A DNA stretch of 23,897 nucleotides from a virus: positions 1 through 23,897 of IMG/VR virus record IMGVR_UViG_3300025652_000552; one strand, written 5' to 3'. Position 1 is the stretch's first letter, and every line of letters starts with the position of its first letter. The translations under genes and the position numbers were made by a program. The notes beneath the pieces are model-generated. The model was not told where the DNA came from. It saw nothing but the letters and a program-made list of their open reading frames with translations, and searched no databases. Below are positions 8,908 through 23,410 of this stretch, piece by piece.

Positions 8908-9855
8908 TTATGGTCTTAACATAGGACCAGAAACTCCTCCTCTACGTCTTCCTATATAAGTTTGATAATTCAACCTAACTTGAGTCACATCATCTGCTGA
9001 AGCAGAAAAATCTTGTGAAATTAATCTTGTATTAGAGCTGTTAAAACTCCACAATTGACTCACTTGATATGTATCATCACTTAAAAATGTTAAAAATGTG
9101 CCATCTGGCATCGTTACATCTTCGTCTACTTCCGTCAAAAAATCCGCATCATATACTATACCTTTTACATTGATAGAAAATGAATCAAAAGCTGAATCTG
9201 TTAAATAACTAAACATTCTTTTTGAAGTGAAATCGTCCACTTCCATTGTAAAACTTGTATTTACAACTATAGGCCAGCCAATGCTTACTTGTACCGGCAT
9301 TGTATTATTAATTGCATAAACTGGTATCTTAGGAACAGAAACGTCAAAAGAAAAATTTGTAATTCTATTACTAGTTGACTCTAAACAAGTTAAAGATATA
9401 TCACTAGGTCTTGGTACTTTCACTTGTCTTTCAACATTTCGGCCACTAGCATTTAGAGAATTTTCTGCTGTTTCATTTTGCAAACCATAACCTATATCAC
9501 CAAAAACAGATATATCTGCAGTTGAAACTGGAGTTTGACCGTACTGAACTGAATAAGAATAAGAAGTCAAATGACCTTCATCAAAACCCAGTATTCTATT
9601 ATCGTAATGAATTGACCCCCTTAAAGCTCTATTCAAACCTGTATAAGGCTGAATAATATCTACAAAATTTAAATCTCTAGTTATAGAAACGTTTGATTCT
9701 GGAATGTCAGAAATAACTTGATTAACGCATCCTTGACCAAGAATATTAACAGGTTTAGTTTTAACATTATAAGAAGCGCTAACAGAACTTACACCCAGCA
9801 ACTTCACTCCATTTAAAAAAACTGTTTGATTATAATTTGTAAATGCGCTTGCCAT
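8908..9855 (-). CDS. Tail-tube-like protein downstream of the tape measure (315 aa)
   Basis: The protein has a two-part beta-rich plan. The first part is VKLLGVSSVSASYNVKTKPV (about 17-36) followed by a 'G..N...P....I...L' stretch and HLTSYSYSVQYGQTPVSTAD (95-114). The second part is ITNFSFDVSVPKIPVYAINN (165-184) and TSFTMEVDDF. These match, segment by segment, the major tail protein at 20531-21934 (RVQNLNFGF..., FVSNYELNLTVGELPTANVT, IQSLSFSLPLART) and, less closely, the 582-aa protein. I infer a paralogue of the tube protein that caps or extends the tube near the tip, comparable in position to distal tail proteins. Its ATG at 9853-9855 overlaps the tape-measure stop by one base (TAATG), indicating translational coupling. 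The C-terminus is basic (IGRRRGG). Confidence 0.65.
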   Translation of the reverse strand: MASAFTNYNQTVFLNGVKLLGVSSVSASYNVKTKPVNILGQGCVNQVISDIPESNVSITRDLNFVDIIQPYTGLNRALRGSIHYDNRILGFDEGHLTSYSYSVQYGQTPVSTADISVFGDIGYGLQNETAENSLNASGRNVERQVKVPRPSDISLTCLESTSNRITNFSFDVSVPKIPVYAINNTMPVQVSIGWPIVVNTSFTMEVDDFTSKRMFSYLTDSAFDSFSINVKGIVYDADFLTEVDEDVTMPDGTFLTFLSDDTYQVSQLWSFNSSNTRLISQDFSASADDVTQVRLNYQTYIGRRRGGVSGPMLRP

Positions 9856-12800
9856 TACTGTTGTTTCTTCTTAGTGGAGTCTAACAATCCTCCAGATCTT
9901 TGTTCTGTGTTTATAACTTGCATAACTACTTGCTTGACTTTCTTAGAAAAGTCTTCATATTTTTCTGCTTGAGTCTGAGGTGCGCTTCCTTCTTCATTTG
10001 TATTTGTTTCTTCAGAAGAATTACCTCCTTTTGCGTTAACAGTTATGTTAACTGAAACATTATTAGTTGAGCTTGTATTGGTATTAGTTTCCGTCATACC
10101 CCCGCCAGCTCCACCGTCAGAAACCATTCCTCCGTCTTGGAAGCGAGCTATTCCAGAATTAATACTGTTTAAGCCACCAACTCCATATTTTCTTACTGCG
10201 TTACTGTTTACAACATATTCTCCACCTGTTAACATTGCGGGTACAGAATCTGTAATTCTGCTACCATAAGGCACGTAACCTCCTTTATTATACGGAAGAC
10301 CTACATTATATTGAAACGGTGAATTAATAGCATCAAAACCTAGCCCTGCTTGAGAATTTGGATTAACGGAAGTGCCACCCGGGCCACTTTCTAAAAATTT
10401 ACCCATCGAAGTGGAGCCAGCAGAGTTTCCGGCATTACCTATAGCACCTATACCAGCAGAAACTCCAGCCATAGCAAAACTTGAAATCGCTTGAGCAATC
10501 ATTTGTCTTTTTTTAGCTTTTTTCTCGGCTCTTTTTTGTCTTCTTATCGCGTCTAGCTGTTTTCTTTGCTGATAGTATTCTTTTATAAAAACTGTATTTT
10601 CTTGAGCGAAAGCAGATAATTGATCACTTGTTGCAGATAAGTTAACCCTAGCCGAAGCGTCAGAACCTTCGGCTGACATCATAGAACCTAATGCTACATC
10701 TTCCGATAATCTTCTTTCTCCACTTTTGAGTCTTCCGCCTGAAGCGAACCTAGGAAATGTTCCGTAATTTATACCATCTAAAGCTTTAGGGCCACCCATT
10801 CCTTTTACGGCTTCTCTGTTTAAAACATATTCACCGTCTTCTAATAAAGCTGGATTTTTATCTCCGGTTCTTCCTCCAGAAATATACATACCGTTTTGAG
10901 CTCTTATAAGACCACCCCTCTGTTTGGACATAGGTAACGCGCCAACAATTTGATTTGCGACTTGACCCATTAATGCAGATTGAATTGATTGAAGAAAAGA
11001 AGAAGCAACGCCTAATAAAGCGCTTTCTAAATCATCTGTTCTATTAATCGCCGCATCCATTGCGTTAACCAAACCATCCCTAAAGGCGATAGTTGTATTT
11101 TCGGCAAATCTAGAAGGAAAAGTTTCAGCTTCAGTTCTTATCTGCTTTATAGCTTTTTCGTACCCTCCTTTTGCAGTCGTTCTGGCTTCTCTTTGTCTAT
11201 CTGCTAAAGTATTTTGATTTTCTAATTCTTTAGTTTGTTGCTTTTCAAAACCTAATATCTGCTCTTCAAGCATCAACAAACTATTAATTGTATCTTCTTG
11301 GTCTTTTATCGCTTTTCCACTTAAACCCATTTCTTTCGCGGTATCTCTAATAGCTTCTTGTCTTTCTATAAGAGCTCTTAAATTTTCCTTATTAGCTTCT
11401 TTGCTTATATTTGCAATAGCTTCTTCGTTTTTCTTTAACTCTACAAAATATTCAGGATTTGAAACTACAGCTCCAGCTCCTATCCCCGCAGTCCCTAAAG
11501 CGTCAAGATTCGCTTCAAGGGCTGTTGAATCTACATTACCTGCAATGTTGGTTTGTGTAAAAATATTTCTTTGCTCTGACGCAGCGTCTCTTCTTAGTTT
11601 ACTTCTAAATTGATCTTCTTCCTGCAAAGTCATTCTGTTGAAAGCGCCGGGACTTTGAAGTTTAAGATTTCTATCAGAAGTATTTAAAGCTGACTGTAAC
11701 TGAAGATCCTGAATTGCCATCTCACGTTTAGCCAATAAATTAGATAAAGTATTTAAATTTTCTTGTTCTTTTTCAGTGACTTCGGCTCTTTTTGATAGAG
11801 CAGTAATATCTGCATCAATTACGTCCTGTTGCGCTTTTAAAGCGGCTTTTCGTGTAATTTCCCGATTAACAGCTTCTTTAGCTAAACTTTCTAAAACTAT
11901 TCTCTCCTTGGGGTCTACAAGGACATTTTCAGTATCTTTTATTTTATCAAAAAATTTATCTAATTCTTTTATACCGGCTTTTTCGGAAACTAAGTCTTTT
12001 AATTCTAAAGCTACTTCTGCTGATTTGATTTTGTTTTTAGAAGCGGTAACAAATGCATTTAAGAAATCGTTATTTATTTCTTTACTAGTTTTATCAAAAT
12101 CGGCTTGCAGTTCAGTTTTCCTGAAAGTACCCTGTTGTGCAATTGAGTCAATTGGACTTATAATACCTTGAGTTAGCGCCTGATTAGCTTTAAAACCTAT
12201 TTCTCTAAGATCTTTACTTTTATCCAACTGTATTAGCTCTTTGTCTACTCCTAAATTAATATCCCTTAAATTTTCTAGAATTTGGTTGAAAATATTTGCA
12301 ACTCCGGGCACCACCTCTGAAGCCCCTTTAATTGCAGCATCTTCTGTTTGTTCAACTAATTTTACTTGCTCTTCTAGTAACCCCAAATTCCCCCGAACAT
12401 CAATAGGTCCAGCTTTTTCTTCCATGGCTAATCGTCTCATTTCGGGAAGGCTGGCGGTCGATAGTTCCAAAGCTTTTTTTATATATGAGCCTCCCCCCGT
12501 TTCTGGAGGAACTAAAGTTTTTAGAACAGCTTTCTGTAAACCTTCAGGAAATTCCTTAAAGTCTGAACTTTGAACTATTTCATTTAATGCTTCTGAATCA
12601 TCTTTGTTCTTGATTAAACTATCTAAAAGTTTTTTAACGGTTGCATCTTCTTCAGCGTATCTAGCCAAATTCAAATAAGCTAACCTTTTTCCTTCTTTAT
12701 CTAAACTTTTTGAAGTTTGTAATTCATTAGCTATCCTAACATATTCATTTTTTGCGGTTTCTTTTTTAAGTCTTTCTATTTCTTCATTCAATTTTTCTGA

Positions 12801-15800
12801 ATCATTTGCACCAGTTACACCTAAAATTTCTCTTGAACCTTTAGGTAATTCTTGAAATAATTCAGTCCTCTGACTAATTAACTCCCGTCGTTGTTTTGCA
12901 TTGGTTGCAGTTCCTTGTAATTTTTCATTTATCTCGCCCATACTAGTTAATTTAGCAATTACTCCCTGTTCCTGATCCCTGTCTTTTTGAGCTTGACTTC
13001 TAATGTCATCTAAATTAGTTGCCGCTTCACTTGCAGCTGAAGCGAGACCAGCCAAAGCTCCCACTACACCGCCTATCGCTGTACCAAGACCGGGGAAAAT
13101 AGAGCTTCCTATCATTGCTCCAGTTACGGCTGCTGTTGGAACGGAGCTAGCTGCTGCAGAATTAAATCTTTCCTCTTCGCTCATTTCAATTCTGCTTCTA
13201 CCACGTTCTATAAAAGATGACGCCATGCCGCCGAGAATAGGCGCTGCAAAACTTAAACCTAAACCTAATCCACTCCCACCTCTTTTAGCTTGTGCATCAA
13301 AAGCTGTTTGCCTTGCATTTTGAAATCTTGTACTCAAACCTCCAATTCTTTGGCCAACGCCCCTAATTCCAGCCCCAGCTCTCCCTAATAGACTGGGCTT
13401 AGAAGAGAATCCTCCGGGGTTTAAAGTAGAAGGCGGCACGTAAGATCCCATAGAAGCAGGTAAAGTCGATGGCGGCACATACGCTGATGTTTGAGTCGCT
13501 ACAACATTTCTTTCTGTAGCTAATCTGTTTGTAGCAATTGCTACAGATTGATTTGCTTTTTGAACCACTAAAGTTGAACCTGTAGTCGCTTCTAACTGTT
13601 TAGCATATGTTCTTACATCTCCTTGAAGAAGTTTTTGATCATTTGCGCTTAGATTAACTTCTGAAGAAAGAGTTCTGAGAGCTCTATTTAATTTTTGTAA
13701 TTCTTGCTGTTGCTGTCTTGTTAAATCTGCGAATTTTTTACCAAAAACATCTTTAGAACTTATCTTTGGAATCGGAGCAAAATTAGGAATATAACCTGAA
13801 TTAACTAACCCAGCAGAAGATTGAGCGGCGTATGAATCTTTAACTGCTTGCTGTAACCCACCATGATCCGCAACAGCAGAAGCGAAACTGCCTTGACCAG
13901 AATTTCTAATATGAGGTATAGGACTATTAGAAAAAACAGATTTTTTACCAGACATGTTTTCCTCTAAGGACATAACAGCATTTTTATATGCAAAATTTGG
14001 AATGAAACCGCCAAATTTACCCTTACGTTTTGTTTGTGATTTACTGTCGTCTGTAGATAAAATTTTAGCACCTAAGTTTCTTAAAACCTGAGAGGCGAAA
14101 GCACCTCTTAACTTAGTACCTTTATTCGCCTTAAAATCACCTTGACTAGATGCTATGTTACCTTCAAATAAATCTTTTATCTCTGGTGTTATTTTTGTAT
14201 CTAAAGTTCCAGATTCTGGATTCAATGATTCCCCCGCTTGTTTGGAAGAAATTAACTTTCTAATAATTCCTTCGAAAAAAGCTCCCTTCAAAGATTCTCT
14301 TGCCCCTTTACCGCCAGCCTGATCAACTAAACCTTCTATTTCAGCTTTAGAAATTCGAGCTCCTTTAATGAAAGCAGGATCAAAAGATTTTAAAAGCGTT
14401 TTTCCTGCTGTATGCAAACTATCATCTATAACTTCTGCTATGGTAGAATTTTTATTTTTTAAATTTTTACTAGCGCCTTTCTTTAATCCATGAATTGAAA
14501 AATCAACAGAATCATATTTTTCACCACCTAACTGAAAGCCACTTTGAAATTTCTTCTTTGCACTTGCATCAAAAAAGTCTGTATCTGGAACAAGCATCGA
14601 AGCTTCTCTTTTTAAATTATAAGACCTTGCAGTTTCAGCAGCTGCAGCTTTTTTGTCACGACTTGTTGTCCAACCTGCCGCTTTAGCGTCTTGTTCACTA
14701 ATTTTTTTAGAATTAACAGCTGAAGTAATTTTTGGATTATTTAAAGACCCATCTACCTTATAATAGTCCCTCGGCAAAGCAAAATTAGGAATAAATCCAA
14801 AACTCGCATAAGGATCTACTCCAGTTCTAGACATAGAACTACTTCTATGTTTTCTGCCAGCTTTTGATCCAGCTGGAGGGTTTATAAACGGTTGATTGAA
14901 TCCTGCAACATATTTAACATTTTCGGCGGTATTCATTACGCCACCCACAGGAGATTTAACGACTGCTCCGGGCATGTAACCTCCAGCCATAGCCCCACCT
15001 ATTTCGGCTTGAGCTATTTGCGGGGGAATGTAACCTTCAGACTTAAATTTACGACCAGTTTGTAAACCTCTTGCACCAACGCTAACATTTTGTCTAGAAA
15101 GAATAGCAGCCAATTCTTTTGCTGTAGCTAACTGACTCCTATACTCTGAGGTGGTATTTCTAGCTAATTTTAATAAAGTATCTGCTTGAGTTGCCCTACT
15201 GTTACCTTGACCCATTAACGCTTTAGCAACATCTCCCTGCCCTTGAAGAATATTTAATATAGATTTTTCTATCGTTGCTCTTTTTTGAGAAGCACTAGAT
15301 AAACCTAAAAGAGCCGGTAAAGCTCTTGTTAAATCTATAAAAGTATTTTTTGCTACTTGAGCTAGAACAGCAAAAATCCCAACCAAAGCTGGACCAGATA
15401 AAATATTTTTAATACCCTCTAACAACCCTCTAGCAAAATTAGAACCCAAACCTTCCCCCTCCAAAAGACCATTTATGTACTGAACAGCTTCATTAATTGG
15501 CTCTATGATTGATTTTGCGATAGGTTTGAAAGTCGATTCACCTAAAGTAGACCCTAATTGAGTTAAGGAAGCGGAAGTTTGACTAAGCAGAGCATTTAAA
15601 GTCTTATTTAATTTTTCATTAGCTTTATCTGCTTCATTTGTCGCCCCAGTCGCTACTCTTAAAGCTGAATTATAAATTCCATATTCTTTATTTAAATCGT
15701 TAACTAAAGCTTTTAAAATGTTAACTTGATAAACACCAGCAACCTGCTCTGATAAGTAAGCTTTTTGAGTTTGAGCTAACCCACCATAAGCTGCCGAAAA

Positions 15801-16682
15801 ATTTTGTAATATCTGAACCGCTGGTAAAATGTTTCCCTGTAAATCTCTAACTTGAATATTAAAATTCTCTAATTGATTTAAAGTTTCACCTCTTTGTAAG
15901 CGGGTAAAAATTGTTTTTAATGCGTTACCTATAACAGAACCGCCTCTAGCCGTTGTTTGTTGAGCTGTTGCAACTAGAGCATTTAACTGATTGAAATCTG
16001 CTCCAGCTTCAAGCGCTGACTGACCTGCGCGAGATAAAGCTTCTGTAATATCTCTAGCTGAAACAGCAAATTTTTGCTCAACTGCTACAACTTTATTTAA
16101 AATCTCACTAGTATTAAGCCCTTCCCTAGCAAAACCATTAACTGCGGCAGTTAAATCTGCAACCGCTTTTCCAGCATCAATCCCAGTTAACCTCACCAAG
16201 GTTAAAGCGTCACCAGTTCTATTTAAAACTTCATTAAAAGACAAGCCTTGACGGGAAAATTCCAAAGCGGCTTTGGAAACTTGATCAAAAGAAGTGGCTG
16301 TATTTCTTGATATGTCAAATAACTGAGTAGAAAATTTCTGCAAAGAACCCACAGACAAATTTAAAATACGATTTATATCTGCTAAGTTTTTTTCCACTTG
16401 CAATGTAGCATCCGCTACATCTTTAAAAGCTTTTACTACACCACCCAAAACAGCCGTAGAAGCGCCAAAAGCTAAAACACGGGCGTTAGAAGCTTTCATC
16501 GCTGATTCAAAATCGTTGAGATCGCTTGTAATTCTACCTAAAGGCTGCCTAAACTGTCTCTCGTTTATTTTTAAATTTATTTTATTTTTGCCAGCTAAAC
16601 GAGAATTATATTGAGAAACGCCTTGAGCAATGCTTTGTGCTAAAGCTGTCTGATTGGCTTGGACATTAATTTGAACTGGCAT
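9855..16682 (-). CDS. Tail tape measure protein, TP901 family, with inserted segment (2275 aa)
   Basis: This is the ruler for tail length. The N-terminus has the classic TP901-type core at about residues 55-270: ESAMKASNARVLAFGAS, DINRIL, STQLFDISRNTATSFDQVS, LSRAGQSALEAGADFNQLNA and ARGGSVIGNALKTIFTRLQR. Hydrophobic stretches lie near 425-465, 1175-1215 and 2060-2090, and long charged helical regions fill about 1215-1900. Motifs GFIPNFA (629-635), GFIPNFA (892-898) and GYIPNFA (963-969), plus GYIPPQIA at 550, are unusual. Residues about 636-891 between the first two look like an extra basic globular segment. Near the C-terminus, two copies of a 'PA(L/M)L..GEYV(L/V)N..AV' repeat occur at about 1930-1990 and 2135-2180. 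At roughly 0.15 nm per residue the upper limit for the tail is about 340 nm. It follows the chaperone pair by 23 bases. Confidence 0.93.
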   Translation of the reverse strand: MPVQINVQANQTALAQSIAQGVSQYNSRLAGKNKINLKINERQFRQPLGRITSDLNDFESAMKASNARVLAFGASTAVLGGVVKAFKDVADATLQVEKNLADINRILNLSVGSLQKFSTQLFDISRNTATSFDQVSKAALEFSRQGLSFNEVLNRTGDALTLVRLTGIDAGKAVADLTAAVNGFAREGLNTSEILNKVVAVEQKFAVSARDITEALSRAGQSALEAGADFNQLNALVATAQQTTARGGSVIGNALKTIFTRLQRGETLNQLENFNIQVRDLQGNILPAVQILQNFSAAYGGLAQTQKAYLSEQVAGVYQVNILKALVNDLNKEYGIYNSALRVATGATNEADKANEKLNKTLNALLSQTSASLTQLGSTLGESTFKPIAKSIIEPINEAVQYINGLLEGEGLGSNFARGLLEGIKNILSGPALVGIFAVLAQVAKNTFIDLTRALPALLGLSSASQKRATIEKSILNILQGQGDVAKALMGQGNSRATQADTLLKLARNTTSEYRSQLATAKELAAILSRQNVSVGARGLQTGRKFKSEGYIPPQIAQAEIGGAMAGGYMPGAVVKSPVGGVMNTAENVKYVAGFNQPFINPPAGSKAGRKHRSSSMSRTGVDPYASFGFIPNFALPRDYYKVDGSLNNPKITSAVNSKKISEQDAKAAGWTTSRDKKAAAAETARSYNLKREASMLVPDTDFFDASAKKKFQSGFQLGGEKYDSVDFSIHGLKKGASKNLKNKNSTIAEVIDDSLHTAGKTLLKSFDPAFIKGARISKAEIEGLVDQAGGKGARESLKGAFFEGIIRKLISSKQAGESLNPESGTLDTKITPEIKDLFEGNIASSQGDFKANKGTKLRGAFASQVLRNLGAKILSTDDSKSQTKRKGKFGGFIPNFAYKNAVMSLEENMSGKKSVFSNSPIPHIRNSGQGSFASAVADHGGLQQAVKDSYAAQSSAGLVNSGYIPNFAPIPKISSKDVFGKKFADLTRQQQQELQKLNRALRTLSSEVNLSANDQKLLQGDVRTYAKQLEATTGSTLVVQKANQSVAIATNRLATERNVVATQTSAYVPPSTLPASMGSYVPPSTLNPGGFSSKPSLLGRAGAGIRGVGQRIGGLSTRFQNARQTAFDAQAKRGGSGLGLGLSFAAPILGGMASSFIERGRSRIEMSEEERFNSAAASSVPTAAVTGAMIGSSIFPGLGTAIGGVVGALAGLASAASEAATNLDDIRSQAQKDRDQEQGVIAKLTSMGEINEKLQGTATNAKQRRELISQRTELFQELPKGSREILGVTGANDSEKLNEEIERLKKETAKNEYVRIANELQTSKSLDKEGKRLAYLNLARYAEEDATVKKLLDSLIKNKDDSEALNEIVQSSDFKEFPEGLQKAVLKTLVPPETGGGSYIKKALELSTASLPEMRRLAMEEKAGPIDVRGNLGLLEEQVKLVEQTEDAAIKGASEVVPGVANIFNQILENLRDINLGVDKELIQLDKSKDLREIGFKANQALTQGIISPIDSIAQQGTFRKTELQADFDKTSKEINNDFLNAFVTASKNKIKSAEVALELKDLVSEKAGIKELDKFFDKIKDTENVLVDPKERIVLESLAKEAVNREITRKAALKAQQDVIDADITALSKRAEVTEKEQENLNTLSNLLAKREMAIQDLQLQSALNTSDRNLKLQSPGAFNRMTLQEEDQFRSKLRRDAASEQRNIFTQTNIAGNVDSTALEANLDALGTAGIGAGAVVSNPEYFVELKKNEEAIANISKEANKENLRALIERQEAIRDTAKEMGLSGKAIKDQEDTINSLLMLEEQILGFEKQQTKELENQNTLADRQREARTTAKGGYEKAIKQIRTEAETFPSRFAENTTIAFRDGLVNAMDAAINRTDDLESALLGVASSFLQSIQSALMGQVANQIVGALPMSKQRGGLIRAQNGMYISGGRTGDKNPALLEDGEYVLNREAVKGMGGPKALDGINYGTFPRFASGGRLKSGERRLSEDVALGSMMSAEGSDASARVNLSATSDQLSAFAQENTVFIKEYYQQRKQLDAIRRQKRAEKKAKKRQMIAQAISSFAMAGVSAGIGAIGNAGNSAGSTSMGKFLESGPGGTSVNPNSQAGLGFDAINSPFQYNVGLPYNKGGYVPYGSRITDSVPAMLTGGEYVVNSNAVRKYGVGGLNSINSGIARFQDGGMVSDGGAGGGMTETNTNTSSTNNVSVNITVNAKGGNSSEETNTNEEGSAPQTQAEKYEDFSKKVKQVVMQVINTEQRSGGLLDSTKKKQQ

Positions 16683-18556: not shown

Positions 18557-19015
18557 ATGGCCTCAAGTTTAATATCATCTAGCGAAAAAACAGCATTAGA
18601 AGCAGTTATGGACGACGTGCATGAAACGTTCGCAAGGGAGATAACCGTTTATAAAGATGCGTCACAAGTAGTTATTATAACAGATCCTAACTTTAACCCA
18701 TTATATGACACAGGAGGAGGAACTACTGAGTCAATTATTAATACACCAATTTCTAGAACTTTTAAGGTAAGAATTCAATATCAAGACGATATTAAGAAAG
18801 AATATTGGGATGAATCTAACATTCAAGCGCAATTCAAAATAGAAGAAGTAAAAGGCAGCGTTAGAATTAAATTTTATGCAAGCGATTATGCTTGGATTAA
18901 AGATGCTAAAAGATTTGATGTAGACGGAAAAAGATTTGTTTTATATTCTAGTTTTAAACCGCACGGTTTATTTAATAATAAATTCTATACGATTATCCTA
19001 CAACCTGATGTTTAA
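18557..19015 (+). CDS. Head-closure / head-tail connector-like protein (152 aa)
   Basis: This small protein is predicted to be beta-rich after an N-terminal helix (EKTALEAVMDDVHETFAREI). A 'TFAREITVYKDASQVVIITD' segment comes next, followed by NPLYDTGGG. The end reads FDVDGKRFVLYSSFKPHGLF, then a final strand, NKFYTIILQP. The pattern 'FAR.I.VYK.A..VV..TDPN.NP.Y' followed by 'DG..Y.V....PHGLF....Y...L' is one I recall from neck or head-closure proteins of marine tailed phages. Length and position fit: it is the first gene of a plus-strand set that ends with the tube protein, the usual order of closure, completion, terminator and tube genes. It is preceded by TTTTTTAAAGTC with no Shine-Dalgarno. 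It overlaps the next gene by eight bases. Confidence 0.5.
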   Translation: MASSLISSSEKTALEAVMDDVHETFAREITVYKDASQVVIITDPNFNPLYDTGGGTTESIINTPISRTFKVRIQYQDDIKKEYWDESNIQAQFKIEEVKGSVRIKFYASDYAWIKDAKRFDVDGKRFVLYSSFKPHGLFNNKFYTIILQPDV

Positions 19016-19616
19016 TAAAGTTAAAGTAACTAAATCTGATGTAGCACAAATTCTTCCCGCAATAAGTAGAGAAGCAGATTATCGTATATATGTGAGAAAA
19101 AAAGTAAGAGAAGAAGTAGAAAAAATAAAATCAAAAATTACTGAACAGTTTAATAATCACCCAGTCACATTAGAATTAGAACAGGGAATAAGCGCAAACA
19201 ATATATCTGGAACTTTGAACGGTATAACAAATTTATATTCATTTATAGGATTCAATCAAGGTTACGACCCTATAAGCCCTATAAGAAGTGAATTAAATAA
19301 AATAAAACTAAATGAATCCTTTTCAATGAAAGGCACAATCAGATATACAATAGATTTTCCTACAGCAAAAGACATTTTCAATATAACCCCCCTACCTTGG
19401 GCTATAGGCAGAAGCTGGGCAAAAGGCATAGAAAGAGGGTTATCTGGTTTAGGTTACTACATAAGAGGAGAAAGAGTTTCAAGCAGATCGGGATCCGGCA
19501 TACAGTCCTCTAAAAAAGTTCTTTCAGGCGCAAGATTTAAAAACACAAAATATATATCTGCATTAATAAATACATACATAGACGATATTAAAAAGTTAGA
19601 AAAACTAATTCTATGA
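19008..19616 (+). CDS. Tail-completion / neck-like protein (202 aa)
   Basis: The start is taken as ATG at 19008-19010 (MFNKVKVTKSDV), overlapping the previous stop by eight bases. The frame is open back to 18936, but those 24 codons lie deep inside the upstream gene and read as hydrophobic shadow sequence. The N-terminal half is helical and basic (RIYVRKKVREEVEKIKSKI), as in HK97 gp10-like and other tail-completion proteins. The middle has the motif LPWAIGRSWAKGIERGLSGL (about 127-146) followed by YYIRGERVSSRSGSG, a Gly/Ser basic loop that I have seen in neck-type proteins of marine phages. Its ATGA overlap with the following gene and its position between a closure-like and a terminator-like gene support a head-tail joining role. 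No catalytic motif is visible. Confidence 0.5.
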   Translation: MFNKVKVTKSDVAQILPAISREADYRIYVRKKVREEVEKIKSKITEQFNNHPVTLELEQGISANNISGTLNGITNLYSFIGFNQGYDPISPIRSELNKIKLNESFSMKGTIRYTIDFPTAKDIFNITPLPWAIGRSWAKGIERGLSGLGYYIRGERVSSRSGSGIQSSKKVLSGARFKNTKYISALINTYIDDIKKLEKLIL

Positions 19617-20473
19617 TTCCTACGTTTTCACATAATTTAAATAACTCCTTTTTTCTTTGGTTTGATAATCTTTTGGCTGCAAAAGCAGAAGCTCATAAAA
19701 CATATACAACTAAATTGTATAATTATGATGACGCTAGACTAGGGGGAGACAAAGTTACATATGGAAGCCCTTACAAACAATGGGTATACGATAACAATGT
19801 ATCAGGAGCAACAATACCATCTGGATTAACTATCGACGGAACTTTCGCCGCAACTGGTACAAGCGGAATGATTTTTGATTTTGATAACGGCAGAGTTATT
19901 TTTAACAGTGGCGTTTCAACCGGCTTAGACATAACAGGAACTTATACTGTAAAAGAATTCAATACTTACATAACTGATAAGACGGAAGAATCTTTGATAG
20001 TAGAGAATAAATTTATTGAAAATAGCAGATTTACAGTCACAGAAACTCACATACCTCCTTACGACGCTGTCACTCCAGCGATTTTCATTTCTTCTTCTAG
20101 CATAGAAAACGAACCATTTGCATTAGGAGGTCAAGATATGACAAACGTAATAATGCGTGGCGTTGTATTTGGCGAAAGTTTATATCAAGTAGATGGAATT
20201 TTAAACACTTGCGCAGATGCCGCAGAAACAGCTTTTGGATTAATACCGATGGGAAAACACCCTTTAGCTGAATTTAGAAACCTTAAAACTGGTTTATATT
20301 CAACTGGATATGATTACAAAAATGCTGCCAAAGATCACTCAATTGGAACTGTTTTTGTTAACGAAGTAGATACCGCAAAAATGAGAGATAGTATATCAAA
20401 AGAATTAAATCCAACATTGCATATAGGTTTTATTGATTTTGAAATAAGTATGGCAAGATACCCAAGATTATAA
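19613..20473 (+). CDS. Neck or tail-terminator-like protein before the tube gene (286 aa)
   Basis: I do not recognise a named family. The N-terminus is helical (SHNLNNSFFLWFDNLLAAK). The middle is beta-rich with Gly/Thr loops (GLTIDGTFAATGTSGMIFDF, DITGTYTVKEFNTYIT). The C-terminal third has a strand-loop-strand arrangement (NVIMRGVVFGESLYQVDGIL) and ends DFEISMARYPRL. It overlaps the previous stop by four bases (ATGA) and is followed, after a 57-base gap, by the major tail protein. In siphoviruses and myoviruses the tail terminator typically sits just before the tube gene, which is the basis of the call. The 286-residue size is larger than most terminators (about 130-200), so a fused or decorated terminator, or another neck component, is possible. 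Confidence 0.4.
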   Translation: MIPTFSHNLNNSFFLWFDNLLAAKAEAHKTYTTKLYNYDDARLGGDKVTYGSPYKQWVYDNNVSGATIPSGLTIDGTFAATGTSGMIFDFDNGRVIFNSGVSTGLDITGTYTVKEFNTYITDKTEESLIVENKFIENSRFTVTETHIPPYDAVTPAIFISSSSIENEPFALGGQDMTNVIMRGVVFGESLYQVDGILNTCADAAETAFGLIPMGKHPLAEFRNLKTGLYSTGYDYKNAAKDHSIGTVFVNEVDTAKMRDSISKELNPTLHIGFIDFEISMARYPRL

Positions 20474-20496
20474 ATTTCACAAACAGCCTTATTTTC

Positions 20497-20504
20497 TGTA
20501 AATA
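20497..20504 (+). promoter_or_regulatory. Candidate promoter element upstream of the major tail protein
   Basis: The octamer TGTAAATA lies in the 57-base gap before the major tail protein, 26 bases ahead of its ATG. It differs at one base from the T4-type late promoter octamer TATAAATA and shares the TGTAA(A) core with the minus-strand intergenic motifs. A dedicated promoter for the most abundant tail protein is plausible. In AT-rich DNA an octamer like this can arise by chance. Confidence 0.3.
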
Positions 20505-20514
20505 AAAATAACAA

Positions 20515-20528
20515 TTTAACTAAAAAAA
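20515..20528 (+). repeat. Direct repeat copy 1, TTTAACTAAAAAAA
   Basis: This 14-base sequence ends two bases before the ATG of the major tail protein and recurs exactly at 21988-22001, just after the terminator that ends this gene. Copy 1 acts as the untranslated leader of the tube gene and has no Shine-Dalgarno. The A-run is typical of AT-rich leaders. Confidence 0.55.
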
Positions 20529-20530
20529 TC

Positions 20531-21934
20531 ATGGCAAGAAATCGTATAATTTATCAGAGTAAAGCTCTATTTATCGCCCCAAGCGCAACAGGCGCTCAGA
20601 TAGCTTTAACAGGTTGCAATACTGCAGCAGAGGTTAAGAAAACTGGCGCACCTTATAAAGGAGAAACTAATACCGCTATAGAAAACTCTACTGGGTTAAT
20701 GGTGAAATTAGATAGAGTTCAAAATTTAAACTTCGGCTTTACAATTAACGCTCAAGACGTTAACGAAATGGGCAGATTAGCTCGTATCAATAGAATTTCA
20801 AATGAACCTCCTACAGTTAATCTTGATTATTCTTACTATGTTACAGATGGTCTTACTGAAAGATTGATGGGTTTTGTTTTCGGTGGTACTGACACAGCAA
20901 ATGCAGCAGTTAACACTGGAGCTCACCCTTTTGACACTGATATGCCAATAGGAGCAGGAGCGCTTTCTGGATTTTTGGAAGAAACTCAAGGCCAAAATTA
21001 TTACATTATCACAACTAATGAAGGCGAAGATGTTGTTGGCGCTACATTAAGTAATGAAGATAGCATGGTTTCTATAGGAAATGGATTTGTATCAAATTAC
21101 GAATTAAATTTAACTGTAGGTGAACTCCCAACAGCTAACGTTACAGTAGAAGGTTTCAATATTAAATGTGATACTAGTGGCCATAGTGACGCAATGAGTG
21201 GTATTTCTCCCGGCATCAATACTCTCGCAGACCCTAACGTGGCATTTACTGATGCAGATTTTAATAGATATTATGCTGTTCAAGATAGCTTAATAAGCGC
21301 TACCGCTGGAACTGGATATAATGATATTGCAGCTTTACGCCCCGGAGATATTACAGTTTCTACTGATAGCTTCCATGCAGAAGATGATGAATTTATCACT
21401 TTAGCCAGCGATAAATCAACATCAGCTCATATTCAAAGTCTCAGCTTTAGCTTACCTTTAGCTAGAACCACCTTAAGTAGATTGGGAGCATTCTTTGGGT
21501 ATAACCGAGTTATTGATGTTCCATTAAACATGGAAATAAATTTAAACGTTTTTGCAACAGAGTTTAATGGTAACAAAAACTTATTTAATGTTCTTTGTGG
21601 CTCTCAACCAGAAAGAGAATTCTCTGTTCTATTAAATAAATGTAACGATGATGGATCTCATACTCCAGCTATTAAGTATAAGTTCAAAGGAGCGATTCTT
21701 GTTAGTGAAAATCATAGCTTAGACATCGGAGGAAATGAAACGGTTGATTTAACTTATTCAATTCAAATTGGTGGAGCTAATGATACAGTTAGAGGGCTAT
21801 TTATGAGCGGGTCTTATTCAGCTACCCAAAATCCCTTTCTTGATGAACAGTATCCGAAATTAGCAGCTGATGGATCTGGGCTTAGTGGTTTAATTAAAAA
21901 CTTCTATGGCCCGGGTGTAAGAAGAAATTATTAA
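20531..21934 (+). CDS. Major tail protein (tail tube subunit), 467 aa
   Basis: The protein forms the tail tube. It starts MARNRIIYQSKALFIAPS. A first tube-like half has RVQNLNFGFTINAQDVNEMG (62-81) followed by an EPPTVNLDYSYYVTDG strand pair and GFVSNYELNLTVGELPTAN (185-203). A second half has HIQSLSFSLPLARTTLSRLG (300-319) and VPLNMEINLNVFATEF (330-345). This two-domain beta-sandwich plan is repeated in the 315-aa and 582-aa proteins on the other strand. At 467 residues it is long for a tube protein, consistent with surface-exposed insertions (for example about 118-170 and 215-265). It follows the neck genes, has its own gap with a candidate promoter and a 14-base A-rich leader, and is closed by a strong terminator, as expected for a very highly expressed gene. 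Confidence 0.75.
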   Translation: MARNRIIYQSKALFIAPSATGAQIALTGCNTAAEVKKTGAPYKGETNTAIENSTGLMVKLDRVQNLNFGFTINAQDVNEMGRLARINRISNEPPTVNLDYSYYVTDGLTERLMGFVFGGTDTANAAVNTGAHPFDTDMPIGAGALSGFLEETQGQNYYIITTNEGEDVVGATLSNEDSMVSIGNGFVSNYELNLTVGELPTANVTVEGFNIKCDTSGHSDAMSGISPGINTLADPNVAFTDADFNRYYAVQDSLISATAGTGYNDIAALRPGDITVSTDSFHAEDDEFITLASDKSTSAHIQSLSFSLPLARTTLSRLGAFFGYNRVIDVPLNMEINLNVFATEFNGNKNLFNVLCGSQPEREFSVLLNKCNDDGSHTPAIKYKFKGAILVSENHSLDIGGNETVDLTYSIQIGGANDTVRGLFMSGSYSATQNPFLDEQYPKLAADGSGLSGLIKNFYGPGVRRNY

Positions 21935-22510: not shown

Positions 22511-23410
22511 TTAAAGAGCTAATGAATTTAATATTTCTTCGGAGTTAAAAATAACATCATTCGAATAATAAGGAAACTCATGATGGTTTCCATGAAAATC
22601 ATAATCAAAAATATAACTATCAACTCTTTTTACGTTTCCTGACGGTTCTCTTGCACAAATATTATCATGTATATCGTAACCAAACATCTCAGGATGTGTA
22701 CCTACCCATAAAACAGTGCAAGGAATTTTATATGCAGCTGCAGCATGATGCAAAGAAGAATCAATTAAAGCTCTTTTTTGAGAAGCTCTAACTAAAGAAA
22801 ATAACTGAAAATTATTTAAAGGCGCATCTACTCTTTCAACACCTTCTAAGTGATAAGAGTTGGGGCGACAAACTCTAATAATATGATATTTTTGTGCAGC
22901 TGCTTTTACGATTATTTCAGCCATGGCTGGCGGCATATCTCTTGTCCAAGCATATGCGTTTGGTTGCATATTCTCATCCAGAGGACCACCATTAGTTTGT
23001 AAAAGAAGTATTGGTTTTTCACGTCGCCATTCTTGAGACCAAAGTTCTTGCATCCCATTCATTGGTAAATAAGGACTGATTTCCTTTTTATTATAAGGAA
23101 TATCATACATATTAAACCAAGTTTCATACAAAGGCGTTTTTCGCATAATATGATTATTCTCGTAGTAAGGCTCTTTTCTTAAAACGATAGTGTCTTTTTT
23201 ATGAATGTAATCATCATAAAAATAAGGCGTTGCCCCAACCTTGTAAACCCTATGTATGTTTTCGTTATTTAAAAATACCTCTGGATAAGAGGCAACGACA
23301 ACGATTTTTCTATCGTTATATTTCTTTTTTAAATGAGTAACAACAGCAGTTGAAGCTACGTTTTTACCCAAGCCCCCTTCTACATGAAAAACCAAATACT
23401 TCTCAGTCAT
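22511..23410 (-). CDS. GT9-like glycosyltransferase (heptosyltransferase superfamily, GT-B fold), 299 aa
   Basis: The N-terminus has a strand and glycine loop, YLVFHVEGGLGKNVASTAVV (5-24), followed by KIVVVASYPEVF, matching the first Rossmann half of ADP-heptose:LPS heptosyltransferase-type enzymes (GT9). The C-terminal half has the sugar-nucleotide-binding signature: RALIDSSLHHAAAAYKIPCT (213-232), LWVGTHPEMFGYDIHDN (234-250). Known GT9 enzymes transfer heptose or a related sugar to LPS. In a phage the acceptor may be host LPS, a capsid or tail protein, or modified DNA, and I cannot tell which. The protein is somewhat short for GT9 (usually about 320-360 residues). It lies two bases after the 86-aa gene and 19 before the connector-like gene, embedded among virion genes. 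Confidence 0.75.
   Translation of the reverse strand: MTEKYLVFHVEGGLGKNVASTAVVTHLKKKYNDRKIVVVASYPEVFLNNENIHRVYKVGATPYFYDDYIHKKDTIVLRKEPYYENNHIMRKTPLYETWFNMYDIPYNKKEISPYLPMNGMQELWSQEWRREKPILLLQTNGGPLDENMQPNAYAWTRDMPPAMAEIIVKAAAQKYHIIRVCRPNSYHLEGVERVDAPLNNFQLFSLVRASQKRALIDSSLHHAAAAYKIPCTVLWVGTHPEMFGYDIHDNICAREPSGNVKRVDSYIFDYDFHGNHHEFPYYSNDVIFNSEEILNSLAL

Follow-up and report, generated by a model that had tools for sequence, protein, structure and literature searches.

A motif-bounded, nuclease-like cassette in a phage tape-measure protein as a candidate for exchangeable virion cargo

The tape-measure protein encoded in a 23,897-nucleotide stretch of viral DNA (the window; IMG/VR record IMGVR_UViG_3300025652_000552, positions 1 to 23,897) carries, between two copies of the motif GFIPNFA, a segment that is probably an exchangeable cassette within a cargo bay for enzymes delivered by the virion, the motif serving as punctuation at the level of the protein. 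Whole cassettes are swapped between phages with breakpoints at the motif, and the assignment of the window's cassette as a PD-(D/E)xK-type nuclease-like domain is well supported, the class being read from the catalytic motif, the order of the predicted structural elements and links between profiles. The features of the protein, all on the minus strand, are the following.

9855..16682 (-): tape-measure protein, 2275 aa, with PF10145 and PHROG matches
15012..15035 (-): GYIPPQIA, residues 550-557, degenerate motif opening the upstream conserved module; relatives have GGY[IV]P or GYIP there
14799..15011 (-): upstream conserved module, residues 558-628 (...GGVMNTAENVKY..GF.QPFINPP...), conserved in relatives up to motif 1
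14778..14798 (-): motif 1, GFIPNFA, residues 629-635, left cassette boundary, low-confidence coil in the model
14010..14777 (-): cassette, residues 636-891, with an N-terminal adaptor (about 636-690), a beta-rich part and a nuclease-like core
14079..14306 (-): PD-(D/E)xK-like core, residues about 793-868 (G800, F803, E804, D828, D849-x-K851, K/Q865)
13989..14009 (-): motif 2, GFIPNFA, residues 892-898, right cassette boundary
13797..13988 (-): cap module, residues 899-962 (AVMSLEENMSG...PHIRN...DHGGL...), conserved past the last cassette in relatives
13776..13796 (-): motif 3, GYIPNFA, residues 963-969, end of the cap module

The tape-measure protein and its gene context

The protein is a long member of the tail module with a PF10145 domain (PhageMin_Tail) at residues 123-315, detected above the Pfam cut-off with an E-value of 4.2e-25, and a PHROG search of its 2275 residues returns many tail-length tape-measure matches. 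About 1300 residues of tape measure follow the cap module. Downstream of the gene lies that of a minor tail protein, and the gene following the tape measure is homologous across the relatives compared. The four relatives compared share the arrangement of genes around the tape measure, the matching flanking genes being approximately 28-83% identical.

Four tail-region genes at 18557-21934 (+) lie on the strand opposite to the surrounding minus-strand structural genes, and this strand switch is also present in all four of the relatives compared. Another gene, at 22511-23410 (-), encodes a protein of 299 residues that is glycosyltransferase-like by eye, for which Pfam returns no family at an E-value of 0.1. 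Hjc (PF01870) was not found within the window.

The motif as protein-level punctuation

All four motif sites named in the first-pass annotation are present in the minus-strand open reading frame (ORF), and its "weaker cousin" GYIPPQIA proved to be a real homologous site, as seen from the related sequences that the relatives shown carry there. Given the amino-acid composition of the protein, G[FY]IPNFA would be expected about 4e-6 times, and 100 dinucleotide shuffles of the window DNA gave no match. The upstream module (558-628) is predicted to be ordered, with pLDDT values of about 73-88, and the cap module aligns with a module of other tape measures, NPxGLAVTNTRDEPxG. In a longer model covering residues 541-985, the three GxIPNFA motifs all fall between folded parts, in coil that is mostly of low confidence.

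A search for the pattern across phages, which had been proposed as a check, finds G[FY]IPNFA recurring in IMG/VR and nearly confined to tape measures. At least 199 motif-bearing ORFs, the one of the window included, are among the matches listed from the pattern scans, and a homologous tape-measure N-terminus is present in 129 of the 132 listed ORFs with an intact 5' end; the other 70 of the 199 consist of 67 truncated at the 5' edge of the stored sequence and three that look like chance matches. In a logo of 417 dereplicated copies, each position of the core G-[FY]-[IV]-P-N-F-A carries about 1.8 to 5.1 bits, alanine or serine stands two residues ahead of the core and the flanks are near background; the consensus of the cassette boundary is [AS]-x-G-[FY]-[IV]-P-N-F-A. 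Since codon choice within the motif is that of the whole ORF, the motif is selected as protein and not as a DNA site, and a role as a DNA recombination site was rejected on account of this ordinary codon usage. Together, these data show the motif to be protein-level punctuation, situated at every cassette boundary within a disordered linker. The loci were chosen either by the motif or by the N-terminus of the window's protein, and the statements made here hold for those sets.

No host can be named for the phages, because the four metagenome-assembled contigs found in a host scan carry three unrelated labels. Two contigs binned as Halobacteriovorax (L219 and L220) contain motif-bearing ORFs of 4202 and 4787 residues. 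The phage collection gave no cultured phage or isolate with the system for the queries tried.

A nuclease-like domain between motifs 1 and 2

The segment between motifs 1 and 2 had been described as basic and as unlike tape-measure coiled coil. Its 256 residues include 45 lysines and arginines versus 31 aspartates and glutamates, which makes the first description right though weak, and the second is borne out by the prediction of a folded alpha/beta domain over residues 636-891. AlphaFold2, run with the family alignment, gives a mean pLDDT of 82.5 over residues 690-891. The structure prediction that had been suggested as a check thus yields an ordered domain, neither disordered nor a continuous helix, but one for which Foldseek finds no significant match in the PDB (both models) or in BFVD (the 690-891 model); VIA-align likewise gives no match of weight, its best Z being 4.0.

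The resemblance to PD-(D/E)xK nucleases, first proposed from loose residue spacing, is strengthened by the signature GxxFE, D, [D/E]xK and K/Q, found in more than 100 homologs, while a match of fold is missing. The full signature of this class, namely a glutamate in helix 1, an aspartate, [D/E]-x-K and a K/Q in the helix that follows, is present, and in the model its positions fall on helix, strand, strand and helix: E804 is placed in a helix, D828 beside a strand, D849-x-K851 on strands and K/Q865 in the next helix. The first strand of the alpha-beta-beta-beta-alpha-beta core is not evident in the model. Because no fold match was found, the assignment to the superfamily rests on the signature and on the order of elements.

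Iterative profiles, whose E-values come from local searches against a few hundred sequences, bring the family of the window's cassette to more than 100 members. The columns G800, F803, E804, D828, [D/E]849-x-K851 and K/Q865 are conserved in sequences only 11-28% identical to the window's, an apparent invariance that is inflated, given that the profiles that gathered the family contain the catalytic residues and favour sequences that keep them. The catalytic set also aligns in 68 sequences that span both bounding motifs. The family was reached solely through the motif pattern: no Pfam or PHROG family recognises residues 636-891, a single-sequence search with the cassette gives no match in viral contigs or annotated phages, and a sequence search of the PDB gives matches at chance level alone.

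The adaptor at 14610-14777 (-), covering residues about 636-690 (DYY...AKAAGW..S), is found again in L243 and other relatives, where a nuclease-like domain of another type follows it. Since this adaptor is common to the window's cassette and to a different nuclease-like cassette, the cassettes are themselves mosaic, assembled from smaller modules.

Cassette number and exchange in relatives

A search with residues 21-420 of the window's protein gave 31 relatives at 61-68% identity, 30 of them with a readable tape measure. As in the window, motif 1 starts at residue 629-634 in nearly all of these 30, and the two relatives with the first motif elsewhere come from stretches that are cut. Past motif 1, the relatives have two to five segments, each closed by a motif, followed by the conserved cap and a final motif; the protein of the window has a single one. 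The first slot is occupied in all relatives, and no empty site was seen among them. In the complete close relatives (L221-L251), the tape measure measures from 2206 to 3044 residues, a variation that stems from the number of cassettes and from the region after the cap.

Pairs of tape measures are approximately 80-100% identical in DNA up to the motif and approximately 20-40% identical within the segment, a level like that of random sequence (eight pairs shown), and in most of these eight, high identity resumes at the next motif. The ends of alignments falling in the cargo zone were collected from an all-against-all BLASTN comparison of the motif-bearing ORFs. Right ends lie within 45 nt after the motif start in 95% of 615 cases (median +20) and left ends lie at the motif start in 91% of 400 (median -1), versus 18% of random points within 45 nt either side of a motif; the counts are non-independent, as pairs share loci, and 112 ORFs feed the anchored version of the test.

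Other cassette types

Among the loci listed, 343 distinct cassettes fall by iterative profiles into 74 families, which overlap at shared domains. Among the other cassettes, Pfam models match GNAT, SNase, HATPase and P-loop domains, and some further ones resemble HAD, ART-like and kinase-like domains when their motifs are read by eye. Other slot-1 families have the same residue order as that of the window, and in one independent slot-1 family, for which a separate alignment was made, E, D, E-x-K and K are invariant. Several of the slot-1 nuclease-like families are linked to each other by profile comparison, which leaves the P-loop, HAD, GNAT, SNase and ART-like cassettes separate.

One cassette (L137:5042-6748) is, by eye, a GHKL/HSP90-type ATPase, which is unusual inside a tail protein; one member of the cassette set matches HATPase_c in Pfam. 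An intein or other self-splicing insertion was rejected, the motif being retained at both sides and no HINT-domain match being found by Pfam in P0001 or any of 75 other cassettes.

Function of the cassettes

The first-pass suggestion of a cargo or enzymatic domain is well supported by the conserved active-site signature and by the unrelated enzyme-like domains that are swapped at the same site. The cargo bay would open at residue 629, past the conserved upstream module, and close at the conserved cap module, one tape-measure backbone carrying one to five enzyme-like domains that are exchanged whole at the motif. As is general for tape measures, the protein would be ejected into the host together with the DNA. 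The delivered domain may be an active nuclease directed against host or rival nucleic acid, or it may act on defence, and the motif may be a flexible linker for docking, chaperone binding or cleavage, through which the cargo units can be stored in the tail.

According to two papers, tape measures leave the tail with the DNA in known tailed phages (PMC11126660; PMC13277306). We infer delivery of the cassette as cargo by analogy, because known tape measures are ejected with the DNA and because an endonuclease has been shown on a tape-measure-related protein (PMC11126660). A folded domain of 250 residues is a tight fit in a lumen already filled by the tape measure, which speaks against a cargo bay. 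A broader version, possible and put forward tentatively, is that the tape measure of a large uncultured tailed-phage group would be a programmable multi-payload carrier in which the motif also releases or docks the payloads, each ejected tail delivering a set of host-acting enzymes.

Compatible with the cargo bay, and rather unlikely, is that the motif is a protease cleavage site and the tape measure a polyprotein, the cargo being released as separate units, either in the virion or inside the host. The location of the window's three motifs in predicted disordered linkers, the protein-level selection on the motif and the small residues ahead of it agree with cleavage; however, such linkers and small residues would equally suit docking or chaperone binding, and no protease was identified beside the motif protein in the window.

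The nuclease cassettes could also be selfish homing elements that cut cassette-less alleles and spread in frame, with the motifs as tolerated insertion points and the other domains as hitch-hikers. Most slot-1 cassettes are nuclease-like and cassettes clearly move among related phages, and one study reportedly concerns nuclease genes at phage exchange boundaries. Yet the constant occupancy of slot 1 is at odds with homing, later slots carry non-nuclease domains (GNAT, P-loop, HAD, ART-like), unrelated nuclease families replace one another and Pfam finds no intein-like domain, all of which makes this origin improbable. Tape-measure length normally sets tail length, and the range of lengths among close relatives, due in part to cassette number, would suit cassettes that serve as structural spacers, adjusting tail length or the filling of the lumen, with enzyme-like folds recruited as inert modules. 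In the window's family, however, no columns are more conserved than the catalytic residues, which a spacer would not need and which are invariant in the independent family too, and spacers are improbable.

Relation to known systems

Phage proteins and tail-related proteins with variable effector domains are already known as a kind. In the contractile injection system of Streptomyces davawensis, Tme is a tape-measure-related protein with an endonuclease domain that is loaded in a tail-like particle (PMC11126660). The proposed cargo bay shares with it a putative endonuclease domain on such a protein; Tme differs in having an EndA-like C-terminal domain and DUF4157 and in belonging to a cellular system, whereas here a PD-(D/E)xK-like phage cassette is internal and has a repeated motif at its bounds. 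Sle1-type effectors of actinobacterial injection systems likewise have a tape-measure-like backbone with exchangeable functional domains; they vary at the C-terminus and belong to a cellular system, and the sections consulted describe no punctuating motif or serial cassettes (PMC13277306). The functional domain of Tme and of the Sle1-type effectors is at the C-terminus, whereas the window's cassette occupies residues 636-891 of 2275.

Polyvalent proteins of phages and conjugative elements carry several effector domains (ART, zeta-like kinase and others) that are presumed to be delivered at infection (PMC5512222). The relatives are similar in having up to five cassettes in a virion-gene context, the window having one; in contrast, the source never mentions "tape measure" (PMC5512222), and in the present case the tape measure acts as carrier and a single motif bounds the cassettes. 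Bacterial polymorphic toxin systems also join variable enzyme domains to a constant carrier at a conserved motif, but their variable domain is C-terminal and accompanied by an immunity gene, whereas the present cassettes are internal, central and serial and the gene after the tape measure is one of the conserved tail genes. Neither the motif nor cassettes in phage tape measures were found described in the literature searched, which excluded most subscription papers and preprints, and the arrangement seen here, with cassettes that are internal to a phage tape measure, placed in series and bounded by a motif, appears to be new.

If the cargo bay is real, natural phages would have in the tape measure a platform that delivers interchangeable enzymes. 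With the short motif, such cargo could be located and its limits drawn in any metagenome, and the cassettes would provide divergent phage-borne nucleases and modifying enzymes that current family libraries fail to detect.
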